Shown: piece by piece, positions 14,514-43,340 of the stretch | How the letters are laid out: each line of letters starts with the position of its first letter | How positions within the stretch are numbered: position 1 is the first letter of the stretch | Source: a virus | Length of the DNA: 46,954 bases | IMG/VR virus record: IMGVR_UViG_3300050132_000164 | Span: 1 to 46,954 of that record | Strand: one strand, 5' to 3' | Notes under the pieces: generated by a model | What the model was told of the DNA's origin: nothing | Database searches by the model: none | The model's input: the letters and a program-made list of their open reading frames with translations, nothing else | Translations under genes and position numbers: made by a program

Positions 14514-14888
14514 TTAGACAATTTTACAGGGTATTGAAATGTCTTCATTAAATGTATAAACTGAGCACATTCTATGATAGCCGTCAGCAATAATAACTTT
14601 ATCGTTTTGTCCACGAACAAGTAAGATAGGTGACATTGCAGTTCCGGCATTTATCTTTTTGATATTAGTTTTGACATGTGAATTGCTAACGCCTAACAGA
14701 CTAAGACCGGAAGCTCGAAATATGTCTTTAGCTTTGAATGAAGTCATGTTAGCAGTTCTAAGTTTGTTACCATAAAACTCAGAATCTTCTTCAGAATATG
14801 CTAACGACAAGTAGTTTTCAGCAGCTGCATAATCATGATCTTGCGATAATTTCATCCACTTTACTTCGACGGGTGTTTTCTTTTTCAC
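14514..14888 (-). CDS. ParB/sulfiredoxin-fold-like protein
   Basis: 124 residues, SD GGAGAA before ATG. The segment SPILLVRGQNDKVIIADGYHR (about 86-106) matches the I-x-D-G-x-H-R core of ParB/Srx-type domains, which bind nucleotide or DNA. The N-terminal part (DHDYAAAENYLSLAYSEE) matches a family of bacterial and phage proteins with this core. Function in the phage is unknown. It sits immediately downstream of the helicase gene (15 bp gap) in the same leftward message. Confidence 0.55.
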   Translation of the reverse strand: MKKKTPVEVKWMKLSQDHDYAAAENYLSLAYSEEDSEFYGNKLRTANMTSFKAKDIFRASGLSLLGVSNSHVKTNIKKINAGTAMSPILLVRGQNDKVIIADGYHRMCSVYTFNEDISIPCKIV

Positions 14889-14903
14889 ATGTTCTCCTTT
14901 AGT

Positions 14904-17471
14904 TTACCACTCAACTTGTCTTATCTCAGGATATTGACTGCTTGTAATTACGTGAATCCTTTTAGGCGTTCTTAGCTGCGATACGAACAACAAAGCTTCA
15001 TCAACTGTTTCAGGAATATCCGAAGCATGTCGCTGCTGCCACCAACTTTTCGCACGCGTGTGAGCATATCCTTTTGCCTCAATACCTATCCATTCTGTGT
15101 ATCTTTGCAAGCCAACAAAGTAACTAACCTTGAGTGACGGACTTGAACCAATTTTGGTATGTTTGTGATATAACACTCTGTTAACATCAAATATTTCTAT
15201 TGTGGGTACGTCACCTGCAATTAGTTCATCTGTTCCAGCTGTACGAACTAATTTAGTTTTGAATACAAACTCAGCTCCGCAACCTTCTGTGGTAGGATAT
15301 GGTTTACCGCCACAATATCTAGCTGAGCTATGGTTGTAGATTCCACAAGCTTCGCATACTTTGATTGGCGCTTCACCTACTTTTTCACCTTTTTTACGAG
15401 GTTTGAGCACATCATTTATAGGCCCGAGCCGTCTCGTGTTTCCAGAATAATCTAAAACTAAGCAATTTGAAACTAAGATTCCTGATACAGTGAAACGATG
15501 TAAGGGTCCGGCGTTAACGATGTCCCATACACGCCTTTTGGTTTTTTTGAATATTGGTAATATCTTTCCGCTATTTCTTTGAAAGTCATTTCTTTCCAAA
15601 GAAAAGTCCTCATAGTAGAATCTGCATATTTTATTTCGGGATATTGCTCTCTGAACGCATGAAGTGCTGCACTCCGCATTTCCTTTTGAGTATGTGCTAA
15701 ATTTTGTTCTGCTGTTGAGTATCTTAGATTTCCAGGCTCGTAATGACCGTTGTTGTCTATCCGATCTATTTGTTTGCTTCTGTTCAAACCTAACGTTTCT
15801 TGAATATACAAAGCCATTTCTATTGAGGATTTGAATCGAAACTCTATCCCCCTTGCTCCGTATCTTTCGTAAGCTAGATCGTTTGGATTTGTGCATCTTT
15901 GTTTTGCTGAAATAGTTCGATTGTTCAACCATTTCGGAACTCTTCGTGGATGTCCACAAGTACGACAACCAGCCTTTTCTTCTGTAACGTTGTTGTAAGA
16001 CTTTATATCTTCCAATCCGCAATCGCATTTTACCAAAAGATAAGCAACGTTGTTCTTTCCTTTTCGGAATATCTCTGACGAAATGACAGTCAATTTCCCG
16101 AATTTCTTGTTCAGCAATTCCGGTTTGTGCGATGGCAATTTGTTTATCGGCACACCGCCGCAAGGTCTGCCAACCTTCTTCGGTCCACACCCTGTGGTCT
16201 TCTGTTCCTGTGAGTCCTGCATAAGTTATAGTCTCCTGTTCGCCCTTAAATACAATACCACAATGCGTAACCCAGTTATAGCCGTCCCACAAAAGCATGT
16301 CAAGGGAAACTTCCTCAATTGGAACTAAGCCTTTATTGGTCAAAACTAATTCACCTTCAGCGATACAATTTAACTTTACATAATTAAATCCTTCGATATA
16401 TTGTTCTGGATTGTTGCAATCGTAAGGTCGTGTTCCTCTTGATAACTTTTGGACATGCATCCCTGGAGAAACGGTTGGATAAAGATCAATTATAAAGTCT
16501 ATAGGAGGATGGTCAAAACCTGTAGTCAAAACCCTGAAGCCTACTAAACATCGCAACTCTCCTGTTTTAAATGCTATTAACCTTTTGTTACGTTCATCTT
16601 TTGTTATTTTAGAATGAATAAAAGATGTTGCTATGCCAAAACTATTTAATATTTCAGATATGTGTTCACAATGTTCAATGCCTGAAGCAAATACTAGCCA
16701 GCAAAATCTGCCAAATCCTAATTCAATTGCTTCGCGTATTGCTGCAAATGTGACTTCTTGCTTATCTACAGCTTTTTGTAATGTGCCTTGTGCAAAATCA
16801 CCTTTACTCATACCCACATTAGATATATCAAGTTCAAATGAAGTTCTTCTAGGAACAAGTGCTGCTAAATATCCTTCAGCTATCAATCTGTTAAAGCATT
16901 CGATTGTTGTAATATCAAAACAAATATCTGTAAAGAAACCGCCGTCTGTTAAACAGCCTTGCCCTAAACGGTAATTGGTTGCGCTGTAACCAATAACACG
17001 CAAGTTAGGATTGATTGCTGTTAAAACATCTATTATTTTGCGATATGATGTTTCTTCTTCTGGCGAAACCGTATGGCTCTCGTCTATCAGTATAAGGTTG
17101 CGAAATCCAAAAGCTTCAATGTTGTTAACCATACTAGACATTGAACCAAATATAATAGGATCGTTAGTATCTTTTCTGTTTAAACCCGCACAATAAATAC
17201 CAGCTGGAGCATTGTGCCAAAGTTTGAGTAATTTTAAATAATTTTGTTCCACTAACTCTTGTGTATGAACTATTTGAAGCACTCTAAGATAAGGAAACAT
17301 CTTAAAAGATTCATAAATTTGGCCTGCTATCATCACTGCTTTGCCAGAACCTCCTGGTGCTGAAACTAAAGGGTGTCCTGTTGGATTGTTAACAAGGTAA
17401 TCAAATACAGCTTGCATTGCCTCGCGTTGATAATCTCGATATTGGATGGTTTTGTGAAGTTCCAAACTCAT
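14904..17471 (-). CDS. Superfamily 2 DNA helicase interrupted by an intein
   Basis: 855 residues before splicing. Helicase motifs: Walker A A-P-G-G-S-G-K44-A, DESH box 130-133, SAT 163-165, motif VI Q-K-L-S-R-G-T-R (341-348). Walker A ends GKA rather than GKT/S, an unusual change. Directly after motif VI the reading frame enters an intein, C369 to N669 (about 301 residues). Splicing would join ...YVKLN to CLVLDYSGNTRRLGPI, which restores a normal helicase sequence. The C-terminal part has a zinc-finger-like set (C706-x2-C709, C720, C731). The mature protein would be about 554 residues. It likely unwinds DNA during replication or recombination and lies with the polymerase and clamp. The middle of the intein frame is Arg/Lys/Ser/Gln-rich and looks like the shadow of the nested endonuclease gene. 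Confidence 0.85.
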   Translation of the reverse strand: MSLELHKTIQYRDYQREAMQAVFDYLVNNPTGHPLVSAPGGSGKAVMIAGQIYESFKMFPYLRVLQIVHTQELVEQNYLKLLKLWHNAPAGIYCAGLNRKDTNDPIIFGSMSSMVNNIEAFGFRNLILIDESHTVSPEEETSYRKIIDVLTAINPNLRVIGYSATNYRLGQGCLTDGGFFTDICFDITTIECFNRLIAEGYLAALVPRRTSFELDISNVGMSKGDFAQGTLQKAVDKQEVTFAAIREAIELGFGRFCWLVFASGIEHCEHISEILNSFGIATSFIHSKITKDERNKRLIAFKTGELRCLVGFRVLTTGFDHPPIDFIIDLYPTVSPGMHVQKLSRGTRPYDCNNPEQYIEGFNYVKLNCIAEGELVLTNKGLVPIEEVSLDMLLWDGYNWVTHCGIVFKGEQETITYAGLTGTEDHRVWTEEGWQTLRRCADKQIAIAQTGIAEQEIREIDCHFVRDIPKRKEQRCLSFGKMRLRIGRYKVLQQRYRRKGWLSYLWTSTKSSEMVEQSNYFSKTKMHKSKRSSLRKIRSKGDRVSIQILNRNGFVYSRNVRFEQKQTNRSDRQQRSLRAWKSKILNSRTKFSTYSKGNAECSTSCVQRAISRNKICRFYYEDFSLERNDFQRNSGKILPIFKKTKRRVWDIVNAGPLHRFTVSGILVSNCLVLDYSGNTRRLGPINDVLKPRKKGEKVGEAPIKVCEACGIYNHSSARYCGGKPYPTTEGCGAEFVFKTKLVRTAGTDELIAGDVPTIEIFDVNRVLYHKHTKIGSSPSLKVSYFVGLQRYTEWIGIEAKGYAHTRAKSWWQQRHASDIPETVDEALLFVSQLRTPKRIHVITSSQYPEIRQVEW
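15465..16367 (-). mobile_element. Intein in helicase gene (protein splicing element)
   Basis: Block A begins C369-I-A-E-G-E-L-V-L-T. Block B is T-G-T-E-D-H426-R-V-W, the T-x-x-H type. Block F reads V-W-D-I-V-N-A-G-P-L-H-R-F-T-V and the end is V-S-N669 followed by C670 of the extein. The nucleophiles Cys1 and Cys+1 and the terminal Asn are all present. The penultimate residue is Ser, not the usual His, a known but less common variation. Between blocks B and F there is no in-frame LAGLIDADG or HNH domain; the roughly 190-residue linker is basic and low in order-promoting residues. Confidence 0.85.
15473..16222 (-). CDS. HNH-type homing endonuclease nested in the intein in the +1 frame
   Basis: 249 residues. 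It begins at ATG 16222 with AGGAG 10 bp upstream, inside the intein, and stops 8 bp before the intein's last base. Visible parts are F-G-K-L-T-V (41-46), a zinc-type set C66-D-C68 and C86-x2-C89, C110-TNP, YGARGI (121-126), and Q-I-D-R-I-D-N-N-G-H-Y-E-P-G-N (151-165), the signature of a family of phage HNH-like endonucleases. The protein at 36804-37313 shares all these blocks. It is read in the frame +1 to the helicase, its first 70 residues overlap intein block B, and its last 24 overlap block F. It probably cuts intein-free helicase genes to spread the intein. Confidence 0.8.
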   Translation of the reverse strand: MQDSQEQKTTGCGPKKVGRPCGGVPINKLPSHKPELLNKKFGKLTVISSEIFRKGKNNVAYLLVKCDCGLEDIKSYNNVTEEKAGCRTCGHPRRVPKWLNNRTISAKQRCTNPNDLAYERYGARGIEFRFKSSIEMALYIQETLGLNRSKQIDRIDNNGHYEPGNLRYSTAEQNLAHTQKEMRSAALHAFREQYPEIKYADSTMRTFLWKEMTFKEIAERYYQYSKKPKGVYGTSLTPDPYIVSLYQES

Positions 17472-17495
17472 ACATACAGACTCCCATTTATTATT

Positions 17496-17702
17496 TTAAA
17501 ATACCTGCTTGCAAAGTTCAAGACTTTGTTGCTCAGTAAATCCTTCTGCTATTAAAGCATCATATTTGTGTTTATGTAATTTAGCAACTAATCTGCCGTG
17601 TTCTATCAAGGCAGGTAAATTACTTGTTAATTCACGAACAGCTTCTTTAAACTTATCTGCATTACCACTACCGTTTATCGCAGTTAAATTACCTTTTATC
17701 AT
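17496..17702 (-). CDS. Small conserved phage protein (MIKGNLTAINGSGN type)
   Basis: 68 residues from ATG 17702. This start is chosen because GGGAG lies 7 bp upstream and the M-I-K-G-N opening matches phage relatives I recognise; an ATG at 17720 overlaps the upstream gene. The protein is helical and reads L-P-x-L-I-E-H-G-R-L-V-A-K-L then Y-D-A-L-I-A-E-G-F-T. Function unknown. It lies just upstream of the helicase gene. Confidence 0.65.
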   Translation of the reverse strand: MIKGNLTAINGSGNADKFKEAVRELTSNLPALIEHGRLVAKLHKHKYDALIAEGFTEQQSLELCKQVF

Positions 17703-23315: not shown

Positions 23316-24797
23316 TTAGTTATGAGCTTTAAGCAAAGCTTTGATTTCACTCAATGATTGCAAGTACATTGCTTCTCCGTCCCAAAAAATAGGTTGAAGC
23401 AGATCGAATTCAGCTTCGTTGCTTTCCTGAATAGACAAGTTATCTCTGACTGTAACAAGACCATCATAATTCATTTCAACAACACATCTGCCAGTAAGCG
23501 ATTTTTTAACCTTATCTTTATCTGTAGCAGGATCTTTGAAAATGTTGACTTCTTTGCCGTCAATCACACAATGAGTTGCTTTCATAGCAAAACCGAAAGT
23601 GTCTCTTGTGTTATATTGATAAGTGTAAGAACCGATGCCAAAAACAATGTTAGTTGAGGCAAAACCTTTATCTCTAAGTCTGCTGCAAATGTCAACACAA
23701 CGAGGTACTGTTATAGCATCACCATAAATAGCTCCAATGTGCGAGTCAAGCTGAATAAAACCTTTGCTATTCCTTTCGCCGCCAAATATTTCATAAAGTA
23801 GTTTAATCACCCCTTTGTATTCAGGTGAATCTTTCTCAGCTTTAGGATTACCGCAAATAATATCAGCAGGATCACCAGAGTCAGGACGTATGACCGTTTT
23901 ACCATCTCTTGACATAATTACTTCTTTTAGCCGAGGAAGCGTTTTAGTGATAACTTCCCAAAGATCCCATGTATCAGACACAATAGAAACTATTCCAGAA
24001 GGATGAACTTCAGTAAGTAAGCGTAGATATGTTTCATATTCATCAGTAGCACCACCAGCACACATGACACTATGTTCGGTAGCTGGAACGGAACAGCCGA
24101 CTAATTCTTTTTCAATGTTTGCCTCATAAAACTCTTCAAGATAAAGAATAGCAGGAATAGTATCAGTGCCCACAAATGATAACAAATGGCCTGCTCCACT
24201 ACTAGCAGCTGACTCAAGACTGCTCATACCTCTGAAAGAGAAATCATGGCCTTGAAAGTCAACAAAGTCAGTAATATCTGACGTAAGGTCAGCCCAACTA
24301 TCCAGTATTCGCCGGTAAGCAAGAGCAATAGTGGCGCTAGTGGCGGATTGCCATAGAGAGCATGAAGCAATTGTTTCAATATAGTTAGTGAGCCAAGCAT
24401 ATTGAGGTTTTGTGTTCTCGATAGTAAGCATAGGTACTCTAAGCGGAACAAGTGTACCTTCAGGAACGGCTTTGACTAGCAACGGGAGATAGCCGAGACT
24501 ATGTAATTGCATAATGTGGGTAACATCTGGATTTTCTACGCCCAATGCAAATTTAATCACTCTTTTATATTCTGAAACAACATTAGCTAGAGGTCTTTTA
24601 AAAAATTGTTCATTAAAGTAATCAACAAGATACTCTTTAACAAAAGCTTGAAAACCAAAAGCAACAACTTCGTCTGCAAAGTCAAGCCTAGATGTTCTAG
24701 GTATCCACGTACTATAAACAATTTCAGTGTTATCAGGGTATTGGTGCCGGTGAGATACCTTGTAAAAATCACAGAGCAAAGTAGCAGGATATTTCAT
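23316..24797 (-). CDS. nadV: Nicotinamide phosphoribosyltransferase-like enzyme (NadV or Namat)
   Basis: 493 residues, the normal NAMPT length (about 490). Family signatures: D-F-Y-K-V-S-H near the start, P-L-R-V-P-M-L-T-I-E-N-T, H-D-F-S-F-R-G-M-S-S then FVGTDTIPA, S-V-P-A-T-E-H-S, SIVSDTWDLW and V-I-R-P-D-S-G-D-P. The enzyme attaches nicotinamide to PRPP giving NMN. In the NARP1 pathway of phages its homologue (Namat) attaches it to ADP-ribose-pyrophosphate giving NAD+. Substrate cannot be told from this sequence. It lies 1 bp from the end of the Prs-like gene and shares its message. Both fit NAD+ rebuilding after host defences destroy it. Confidence 0.88.
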   Translation of the reverse strand: MKYPATLLCDFYKVSHRHQYPDNTEIVYSTWIPRTSRLDFADEVVAFGFQAFVKEYLVDYFNEQFFKRPLANVVSEYKRVIKFALGVENPDVTHIMQLHSLGYLPLLVKAVPEGTLVPLRVPMLTIENTKPQYAWLTNYIETIASCSLWQSATSATIALAYRRILDSWADLTSDITDFVDFQGHDFSFRGMSSLESAASSGAGHLLSFVGTDTIPAILYLEEFYEANIEKELVGCSVPATEHSVMCAGGATDEYETYLRLLTEVHPSGIVSIVSDTWDLWEVITKTLPRLKEVIMSRDGKTVIRPDSGDPADIICGNPKAEKDSPEYKGVIKLLYEIFGGERNSKGFIQLDSHIGAIYGDAITVPRCVDICSRLRDKGFASTNIVFGIGSYTYQYNTRDTFGFAMKATHCVIDGKEVNIFKDPATDKDKVKKSLTGRCVVEMNYDGLVTVRDNLSIQESNEAEFDLLQPIFWDGEAMYLQSLSEIKALLKAHN

Positions 24798-36803: not shown

Positions 36804-37313
36804 TTATTTAGTGAGTTTATTTTTCTTACTATTTCGTCTATTATTCATATTCACCTTTTTAGTTACCCATCTGCAATTATCAGGAGAATAACCCAAATCA
36901 TTATTTTCTCTATCTACTTCAGCACCTTCAAATGGTCTTTCTCCCATATCAGCAAAGAAGTTTTCAAAACTATAACGCCATCTATCACAAACAGTTATAC
37001 CTCTACCACCGTAATATTCCCATTGTTTATACTTTGGATTAGTACATCTTTGAATTATTTGACTGTAAACATCATAAAGTGAATTGTGGCTTTGACCGTG
37101 AGTTATACATTTTTCTTTTAATTTTTCAATTCTATAGCAACCGCATGATGTTGAGTTTTTAGATAATAAACCATGTGCTCTTACTATAATTTCTGTTCCA
37201 CAATCACATAAGCAAAACCAAGCTGTTTTTCTAGCAATCTTTTCAGCTTCTTTTAAAACAACTAATCTTCCAAAACGTTGCCCTGTTAAATCATTAAACC
37301 TAACTCTTGCCAT
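36804..37313 (-). CDS. HNH-type homing-endonuclease-like protein
   Basis: 169 residues. Shares all visible blocks with the endonuclease nested in the helicase intein: F-G-R-L-V-V, C36-D-C38-G with C57-G-C59, R-C-T-N-P, Y-Y-G-G-R-G-I and E-V-D-R-E-N-N-D-L-G-Y-S-P-D-N-C-R-W (132-149). Zinc-binding cysteines frame an N-terminal DNA-binding part. It is free-standing, starts 1 bp after the previous gene, and shows no intron signs. A second family member in one phage suggests the group moves within the genome. The ATG follows a stop directly with no strong SD. Confidence 0.7.
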   Translation of the reverse strand: MARVRFNDLTGQRFGRLVVLKEAEKIARKTAWFCLCDCGTEIIVRAHGLLSKNSTSCGCYRIEKLKEKCITHGQSHNSLYDVYSQIIQRCTNPKYKQWEYYGGRGITVCDRWRYSFENFFADMGERPFEGAEVDRENNDLGYSPDNCRWVTKKVNMNNRRNSKKNKLTK

Positions 37314-41852: not shown

Positions 41853-43340
41853 ATGGTCACCAATCAACAGGTACGGAGGTTATTCAAGCTGATGCAAACA
41901 GAAGACACTGGTTACATCGCCGCTGCCAAAGCTGGCATGGACGAAAAGACAGCCCGCAAGTACTTGAAATCTGGCACACTGCCAAGTGAGCTCATGATGG
42001 AGCACACCTGGCGCACTAGGGTCGACCCATTTGAAGCCCATTGGAAGGAAGTACGTGAGAAACTGGTCGAGAACCCGGGGCTAGAGGCGAAGACCCTTTT
42101 CGAGGATCTCCAGCGCCGTTTCCCCGACACGTTCTCTGACGGGCAGTTGCGCACCCTGCAGCGCCGCGTGAAGCGGTGGCGCGCCCTGGAAGGTCCTTCA
42201 AAGGAAGCATTCTTCCCTCAACTGCACCACCCCGGCGAACTGGCTCAATCCGACTACACGCACATGGGGAAGCTCGGGATCACCATCAACAAGCAGCCGT
42301 TTGACCACCTCGTCTATCATTTCGTGCTCACCTACTCCAACTGGGAAACCGGCAGCATCTGTTACTCGGAGAGCTTCGAAAGCCTCAGCGAAGGATTGCA
42401 GGCGGCGTTGTGGGAGTTAGGCGGTGTACCGCGGACCCACCAGACTGACCGATTGACGGCAGCAGTCCATAACGCCCTACACGCCGAGGAATTCACGCAA
42501 CGCTACCAAGCCCTGCTCAAGCACTATGGGCTCATCGGGCGCAAGAGTCAGGCCGCAAGTCCCAACGAGAACGGAGACGTTGAGCAGCGTAACCACAGGT
42601 TCAAAAGAGCGGTGCAGCAGGCCCTTCTTTTGCGCTGCAGCTTCGACTTCGACAACATCAATGAGTACCGGGACTTTTTGCACAAGCTCTTCGCCAGGCT
42701 TAACCGCGGCCGCCGGGAGCGGTTCATGGAGGAGCAGCGCTTACTTCGCAGCCTGCCGGAAAGACGCCTGGAAAGCTGTACCCGCCTTGAGGTAGGCGTC
42801 GGTCGCGCCAGCACCATCCGGGTCAGCAACAACACCTATTCCGTGGCAAGCCGCCTGATTGGCGAGACATTGCAGGTGCAGCTCTTTGCCGACCATCTTG
42901 ATCTTTACTACGCCCAGAAGCGGGTTGACACGGTGCCCCGCCTGCGCGGCAAGAACCGGCATCTCATCAATTATAGGCACGTGATCGACCAATTGCGGCG
43001 CAAGCCGGGGGCCTTCGAGAACTACCGGTACCGCGAGGAGATGTTCCCGGGCAGTTGCTTCCGGGTCGCCTATGACGAGCTCAAAGAGCGCCACACACAG
43101 CAAGTGGCCGCCCGCGAATACCTAAAGATTTTGATGCTGGCTGCGCACGAGAGCGAAACGGCTGTCGCTGCGGCTCTGACCGAACTGTGCGGACGGCAGC
43201 CGATCACGGCGGAGGCCGTGGAGCAACTGCTGCGGGCACAGCAGCCTCCCTCACCTGTGACCGAGGTAGGCGTGGTTGCAGTCGATCTTGCCTGTTACGA
43301 CCGTCTCCTGTCTGGGGAGGAGGTGGCCTATGCAATGTGA
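41853..43340 (+). CDS. istA: IS21 transposase IstA
   Basis: 495 residues, normal IstA length. N-terminal helix-turn-helix region (residues 1-45), then the DDE catalytic core with S-D134-Y-T-H-M, H-Q-T-D-R-L (second Asp, near residue 197) and S-P-N-E-N-G-D-V-E-Q-R-N (Glu, near 240). It cuts and joins the ends of the element. The stop overlaps the istB start by 11 bp, the typical coupling in IS21. ATG 41853 follows AAAGGATGG. Intact, so possibly active. Confidence 0.88.
   Translation: MVTNQQVRRLFKLMQTEDTGYIAAAKAGMDEKTARKYLKSGTLPSELMMEHTWRTRVDPFEAHWKEVREKLVENPGLEAKTLFEDLQRRFPDTFSDGQLRTLQRRVKRWRALEGPSKEAFFPQLHHPGELAQSDYTHMGKLGITINKQPFDHLVYHFVLTYSNWETGSICYSESFESLSEGLQAALWELGGVPRTHQTDRLTAAVHNALHAEEFTQRYQALLKHYGLIGRKSQAASPNENGDVEQRNHRFKRAVQQALLLRCSFDFDNINEYRDFLHKLFARLNRGRRERFMEEQRLLRSLPERRLESCTRLEVGVGRASTIRVSNNTYSVASRLIGETLQVQLFADHLDLYYAQKRVDTVPRLRGKNRHLINYRHVIDQLRRKPGAFENYRYREEMFPGSCFRVAYDELKERHTQQVAAREYLKILMLAAHESETAVAAALTELCGRQPITAEAVEQLLRAQQPPSPVTEVGVVAVDLACYDRLLSGEEVAYAM

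Follow-up and report, generated by a model that had tools for sequence, protein, structure and literature searches.

Inteins that carry an in-frame endonuclease mostly carry one of the LAGLIDADG type and rarely one of the HNH type. Split inteins whose halves flank a free-standing endonuclease gene were reportedly described by Dassa et al. in 2009 (as cited in PMC3229294) under the name 'fractured genes'. In-frame HNH inteins are known from Dalgaard (1997), as cited in PMC5050341, and in ShiLan (2025) an out-of-frame HNH insertion was found in a methylase; it has no splicing blocks, and the authors find no support for an intein or an intron (PMC11855218). Here we analysed a stretch of viral DNA of 46,954 nucleotides (nt; positions 1 to 46,954 of IMG/VR record IMGVR_UViG_3300050132_000164, hereafter the window), in which a helicase gene very probably contains a mobile intein of the class-1 type; one and the same DNA would encode its splicing domain in one reading frame and its homing endonuclease in another.

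As in the inteins with an in-frame endonuclease, the Hint domain of the window element is interrupted between blocks B and F, and the insertion sites are conserved sites in DNA-replication genes; the HNH endonuclease, however, lies in another frame, between a start and a stop of its own, and is proposed to be a separate protein. The element shares with the split inteins a separate endonuclease gene between the intein halves, but these have two intein genes, whereas the window has one continuous open reading frame (ORF); polymerase relatives of the element (L038–L077) are split. The ShiLan insertion is similar in its alternative-frame HNH gene, in the host frame that is kept open and in the stop near the insertion end. 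It differs in lacking splicing blocks and an intein fold and in starting at GTG without a detectable ribosome-binding site, while the window element has the blocks, a predicted fold and a Shine-Dalgarno (SD) sequence. Free-standing phage HNH endonucleases of PHROG_374 have the same zinc ribbon (CxC...CxxC) and HNH core, whereas the nested HNH is embedded in another gene and its tails appear to be by-products of the intein blocks.

A first-pass annotation of this DNA, made from the letters and ORFs alone, knew of no described case of such an arrangement. This was borne out in the literature that we searched, where no described intein with an out-of-frame endonuclease was found, although a preprint on actinobacteriophage inteins of non-canonical architecture (10.1101/2025.01.02.630785), to which the ShiLan paper refers for overlapping frames in actinophages, may describe something related. 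It has to be qualified by the published ShiLan insertion and by RefSeq record NC_000935, in which APSE-1_46 (P46, an HNH protein) is annotated within the coding sequence of the DNA polymerase P45, in the +1 frame. By our reading of the sequence, P45 of this Hamiltonella phage, APSE-1, holds an intein of the window's family with P46 in its +1 frame, so that at least one instance of the layout is already present in annotation; P46 is the earliest annotated instance that we found. It belongs to another HNH subtype than the window endonuclease, and no description of P45/P46 as an intein architecture was found in the literature searched. We also noticed that the HNH frame of APSE-1 (L385, 677-3658 and 2931-3353) remains open over about 80 codons ahead of the annotated start, thus P46 is probably annotated too short.

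The helicase of the window is encoded by one continuous ORF of 855 amino acids (aa) with no internal stop, unbroken across the intein, and it is therefore not split into separate genes for the N-terminal (IntN) and C-terminal (IntC) intein parts. Its domains were recognised by Pfam (ResIII, 5.6e-17; Helicase_C, 2.8e-11) and by PHROG_16, DNA helicase (9.7e-67). The insertion point lies directly after helicase motif VI: Cys1 of the intein is helicase codon 369 (nt 16365-16367), the terminal Asn301 occupies 15465-15467 and the +1 residue is Cys, with the junction sequence FNYVKLN/CIAEGE...GILVSN/CLVLDYSG. These coordinates and motifs, including the T-x-x-H block and block F, agree with those given by the first-pass annotation. 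When the 301 codons were taken out in silico, the resulting helicase of 554 aa aligned across the proposed junction with the intein-free helicase L003 (64% identity), in which the site reads FEYTKRNC-RILDFAANTKRLGPIND.

The structural prediction is in agreement with this. In the AlphaFold2 model of the intein, the predicted local distance difference test (pLDDT) exceeded 90 for residues of about 1-90 and 271-301 and stayed mostly below 60 at residues 101-270, and in a Foldseek search with this model the leading PDB matches were all inteins (Ssp DnaB, DnaE, RecA and gp41-1; E about 1e-4, probability 1.00). The window protein was not matched by the generic intein models of Pfam and TIGR01445, and of 75 members of the family the curated models Intein_splicing (Pfam) and TIGR01445 matched only 2 and 7, respectively; the intein assignment is thus based on its motifs, on the predicted fold, on the alignment with an intein-free homologue and on the mini-inteins among its relatives, which are described below. 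Judged by its sequence and model, the element has the features of a class-1 intein, namely Cys1, blocks B, F and G, the terminal Asn followed by Cys+1, a removable in-frame insert and a predicted Hint fold, and it would be expected to splice.

A search for the same arrangement, which the first-pass annotation had proposed, yielded 154 non-identical elements with a continuous intein and an HNH gene in the +1 frame; they were grouped into 131 clusters at 85% nucleotide identity. A sequencing error that hides an in-frame endonuclease is not compatible with 154 non-identical elements sharing this layout. Cys1 was present in 131/131 clusters, the terminal Asn in 129/131 and Cys or Ser at +1 also in 129/131. 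This conservation bears on the idea that, as in ShiLan, an out-of-frame HNH gene was inserted into a permissive loop, is read through and is never excised. Such an insertion has a real precedent in a comparable nesting of an HNH gene with the host frame open (PMC11855218), but we consider it very unlikely here, because the splicing residues and blocks A, B, F and G are conserved, an intein fold is predicted, and 301 residues placed just past motif VI would be expected to disrupt the enzyme. Splicing at the RNA level by a group I intron with an endonuclease ORF has a negligible probability: HNH genes are often carried by such introns, but no Rfam intron match was found at 14800-17500 with E up to 1, the host frame is open throughout, and conserved intein motifs stand at both ends.

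The 249-codon HNH gene that the first-pass annotation had placed in the +1 frame, with AGGAG 10 nt before the ATG and a stop 8 nt from the intein end, was found as predicted (Table 1), and, as it had also stated, there is no endonuclease in the intein's own frame. The HNH ORF was matched by the profile of PHROG_374, HNH endonuclease (1.1e-24), and by three more PHROGs of HNH or restriction endonucleases; PHROG_3377 was matched at 1e-16. Conserved residues in this frame include C66, C68, C86 and C89, which make up the zinc ribbon, R109, C110, Y121-G122 and the region D153-R154...G159-H160-Y161...N165. The models of the intein and of the HNH protein are confident in complementary stretches, so the folded parts tile the element in the order intein, HNH, intein. 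The overlap with the splicing blocks proved smaller than had been claimed: only the first approximately 30 residues of the HNH protein, not 70, and the last approximately 20 overlie conserved splicing blocks, and in the AlphaFold2 model both are poorly predicted tails. The view of the intein linker as a basic by-product was upheld; it is mostly disordered in the model, is under little constraint and contains 44 Lys or Arg against 11 Asp or Glu at residues 101-270. The window also has a second, free-standing HNH gene (36804-37313, minus strand; PHROG_374, 4.7e-67), which is only distantly related to the nested gene (27-28% identity).

Table 1. Features of the helicase gene, its intein and the nested HNH gene (positions in the window)
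Feature	Position	Strand	Evidence or remark
Helicase precursor ORF (SF2), 855 aa: N-extein, intein and C-extein in a single frame	14904-17471	-	ORF list; Pfam; PHROG
N-extein, helicase residues 1-368	16368-17471	-	Alignment with intein-free homologue L003 across the junction
C-extein, first residue Cys (+1), stop codon included	14904-15464	-	Alignment with intein-free L003 across the junction
Intein, 301 codons, Cys1-Asn301	15465-16367	-	Conserved motifs over 19-75 relatives; AlphaFold2; Foldseek
Block A, intein residues 1-13, C-IAEGELVLTNKG	16329-16367	-	C1, T10 and G13 invariant in 75 aligned members
Block B, T-x-x-H (T55-E-D-H58)	16194-16205	-	75 aligned members: T55 and H58 invariant, D57 almost invariant
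Intein linker, about residues 101-278, helicase frame	15534-16067	-	Predicted mostly disordered, basic, little amino-acid constraint
Blocks F/G, intein residues 279-301, RVWDIVNAGPLHRFTVSGILVSN	15465-15533	-	D282, G287 and N301 invariant (75 members); strands with pLDDT >90
HNH endonuclease gene, 249 codons and stop, ATG, frame +1 relative to the intein	15473-16222	-	PHROG_374; relatives; conserved residues
Folded HNH core, residues 31-230	15533-16132	-	AlphaFold2 pLDDT mostly 87-98; both tails lower
SD sequence AGGAG, within intein codons Q44-E45-T46	16233-16237	-	10 nt upstream of the ATG
HNH ATG, intein Tyr49 codon (TAT) and next G	16220-16222	-	Commonest start position in the family
HNH stop TAG, within block G Leu-Val codons (TTA GTT)	15473-15475	-	Intein ends 8 nt downstream

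Start signals of the HNH frame were compared over the 131 clusters. An SD sequence of at least 5 nt at the best start was present in 97/131 clusters in the HNH frame and in only 10/131 in the third frame, which served as the control. The preferred start positions were intein nt 145 (57 clusters), 133 (22) and 187 (14), and in 78/131 relatives a distance of 8 nt separated the HNH stop from the end of the intein. The HNH frame of the window is closed upstream by a TAA at 16226-16228, two codons ahead of the ATG, and an HNH-frame stop no more than 15 codons upstream of the start was found in 94/130 relatives. It is against this background that programmed +1 ribosomal frameshifting has to be considered, by which the endonuclease would be made from the same two frames as a fusion to the N-half of the intein. 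One mRNA does carry both frames, the shift needed is +1, and an SD sequence of at least 5 nt is missing in about a quarter of the relatives; nevertheless, both the excess of SD sequences with a start and the upstream stops favour independent initiation, and we regard frameshifting as improbable, if somewhat less so than the other alternatives.

We also considered, and rejected, the idea that Tyr49 and the Q-E-V-I codons owe their conservation to the HNH start and the SD sequence encoded there. Mini-inteins without HNH retain Tyr49 in 14/15 cases and TAT-G in 12, while only 71/131 nested elements have the ATG at this position, and the conservation of Tyr49 is thus mainly a matter of the intein, or inherited.

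To obtain the expected number of stops, synonymous codons were permuted within each gene over the HNH core with the HNH protein and the codon usage fixed. The intein frame contained 0 stops in 131/131 clusters against 6.75 expected, a count that is partly definitional since the elements were selected with both intein ends in one ORF; the third frame contained 7.85 stops and was open in 0/131 clusters. In the window itself the intein frame had 0 stops against 12.2 expected, and none of 300 permutations was open. Such a per-element expectation is free of the bias that selection by definition brings to the count over all clusters, and the same is true of the substitution pattern, which was determined in 33 independent pairs with no member shared, as the per-site differences at positions 1/2/3 of the intein codons. 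The intein-only part gave 0.20/0.12/0.43, block B 0.15/0.09/0.32, the HNH core 0.42/0.20/0.14 and blocks F/G 0.14/0.09/0.19. Since position 1 of the intein codons coincides with position 3 of the HNH codons, the fastest position moves to the third position of the HNH codons in the core and reverts at blocks F/G. HNH position 3 was the fastest in the core in 33/33 pairs, with bootstrap values of at least 0.999 in all regions. Changes in the core that are silent for HNH but replace an intein residue occurred 2.1 times as often as expected; for changes that alter an HNH residue and leave the intein residue as it is, the ratio to expectation was 0.54.

It is clear from these data that the overprinting is a relay, or tiling, in which selection acts on any given stretch mainly through a single frame and there is little conflict. 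The first-pass annotation had seen two selected proteins in overprinted DNA; both frames are indeed selected, but they alternate along the element and are not under full double selection. Full double selection was considered also for the overlaps with the blocks and rejected, as the HNH tails there are without clear constraint. The data bear equally on a second frame that is open by chance, as in a dead intein with a fossil endonuclease that was once in frame or free-standing. Some relatives do have a shortened HNH (e.g. L089) and mini-inteins without HNH exist, but with about 6.8 stops expected over the family and none seen, purifying selection in the HNH frame in 33/33 pairs, and conserved zinc-ribbon cysteines and HNH motif, the fossil reading is refuted for the family and has very little probability for the window.

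Some points weigh against the reading of the element as an intein with a nested, functional endonuclease. Besides the partly definitional count of open frames and the quarter of relatives in which the SD sequence was not found, the HNH motif of the window reads D-R-I-D-N-N-G-H-Y, in which the first His is not obvious. A Pfam search with the window HNH gave no match, and Foldseek with the HNH model returned no significant solved HNH fold (PacI at rank 28, E=4.7); the predicted catalytic activity therefore rests on the PHROG homology. When solved structures were searched by sequence with the intein profile or the HNH profile, no match was found.

The family is broadly distributed. By tblastn against GenBank phages, Gardnerella phage vB_Gva_AB1 and several Streptococcus phages were found to have DNA polymerases that match both translations. 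For the catalogue, viral contigs and bacterial genome contigs were scanned with each frame, and three hidden Markov models (intein N, intein C and HNH) were used. It contains 199 non-identical elements: the 154 nested in +1, one in +2 (L093, EBPR siphovirus 2), 15 mini-inteins without HNH and about 20 with the intein C-part in another ORF, and none of the continuous elements in it had an in-frame HNH. A full-length query favours the nested form, and a second scan therefore used the mini-inteins as the query; it gave 47 elements nested in +1, 2 nested in +2, 30 mini-inteins and 0 in frame, at loci partly shared with the first set. The host genes are family-A DNA polymerases (75 clusters and 13 mini-inteins), SF2 helicases (51) and DnaB-like ATPases (5), the last with the insertion at the motif DVV/CIDYAD. 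Bacterial genome contigs with copies include records of Gardnerella, Corynebacterium, Clostridia, Synergistales, Spirochaetales and Proteobacteria. Among the nested-HNH phage records with annotation that we inspected, only APSE-1 annotates the hidden gene; out-of-frame nested inteins are widespread and almost unannotated.

The mini-inteins, which are 110-140 aa long and occupy the polymerase motif at which nested elements are also found, retain exactly the folded parts, so the linker is dispensable. In the streptococcal mini-inteins L205, L227 and L090 the flanks of the HNH frame are kept and the core is gone; these are probable in-frame deletion derivatives that show loss of the endonuclease.

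The intein and HNH distances were correlated (Mantel r=0.70 overall, p=0.001; 0.81 within polymerases, 0.54 within helicases), and the host gene changed only 5 and 3 times on the two trees, against about 44 when shuffled, which indicates that both frames travel together. A wider HNH tree, in which the nested, split and free-standing clades are separate but poorly rooted, placed the main +1 clade apart from a +2 clade (L076, L077 and L093; support 100). The +1 polymerase elements L046, L067 and L092 fell among free-standing HNHs, and the split group had a support of 99. Out-of-frame nesting probably arose more than once, with the rooting uncertain. The +2 layout, with HNH nested in a continuous polymerase intein, was seen at L076 (3249), L077 (5710), L093 (3001), L387 and L388, in phages that include EBPR siphovirus 2, Pseudomonas phage MR14 and Vibrio phage 97.13; at L076 and L077 the +2 HNH lies in the C-part of a polymerase already interrupted by a split intein.

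At about 18 polymerase loci (L038, L046-L077) the IntN ORF ends at approximately +309 and the HNH is in +1, while IntC, approximately 26 aa followed by the C-extein, has its own ATG at about +920 in the +2 frame, in most cases with an SD-like stretch. Examples with IntN, HNH and IntC as three overlapping ORFs in three frames are L048 (3476-6315) and L063 (312-4018). These loci look like split inteins that either descend from the nested form or gave rise to it. A bridging step can be pictured in which an endonuclease with its own start and stop would leave the intein frame free to break into IntN and IntC genes. That mobile inteins have, beside the in-frame fusion and the split form with a free-standing endonuclease, a third general architecture in out-of-frame nesting, with multiple origins (+1 and +2, separate HNH clades) and a bridge to split inteins, is a tentative proposal towards which we are slightly more doubtful than inclined.

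For the window element we propose the following course. The helicase frame would give a precursor protein, in which intein residues of about 1-100 and 272-301 would form the Hint domain; this would splice itself out and ligate the exteins into the 554-aa helicase, while residues of about 101-270 would be a floppy spacer that only has to stay free of stop codons. Separate initiation at the internal SD sequence and ATG, within the codons of blocks A-B, would yield the 249-aa HNH protein from the +1 frame. This protein may cut, at the insertion site, alleles that lack the intein, and repair would then copy the entire element. What the data show directly is two intact conserved frames, the relay of selection, the predicted folds, the start signals, the co-inheritance and insertion points that lie in conserved motifs of three kinds of host gene; splicing of the precursor, translation of the HNH frame on its own, cleavage of DNA and homing are what we infer.

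The textbook view of the endonuclease as a domain of the spliced-out protein is broken by the nested family, which offers a widespread natural case of two proteins taking turns on one stretch of DNA and thereby a test bed for the theory of overlapping genes. The layout also offers a testable route to split inteins with free-standing endonucleases, and it exposes a blind spot: the hidden HNH genes are mostly unannotated, and most such inteins are missed by the standard models.

Several other genes of the window were noted. An ORF of 124 aa that adjoins the helicase (14514-14888, minus strand) has a DGYHR motif resembling ParB/Srx-like proteins and no PHROG match. The gene at 23316-24797 (minus strand) is nicotinamide phosphoribosyltransferase-like (PHROG_448, 1.8e-195), which suggests phage NAD metabolism, and the gene at 41853-43340 (plus strand) is transposase-like (PHROG_1157, 5.7e-59).

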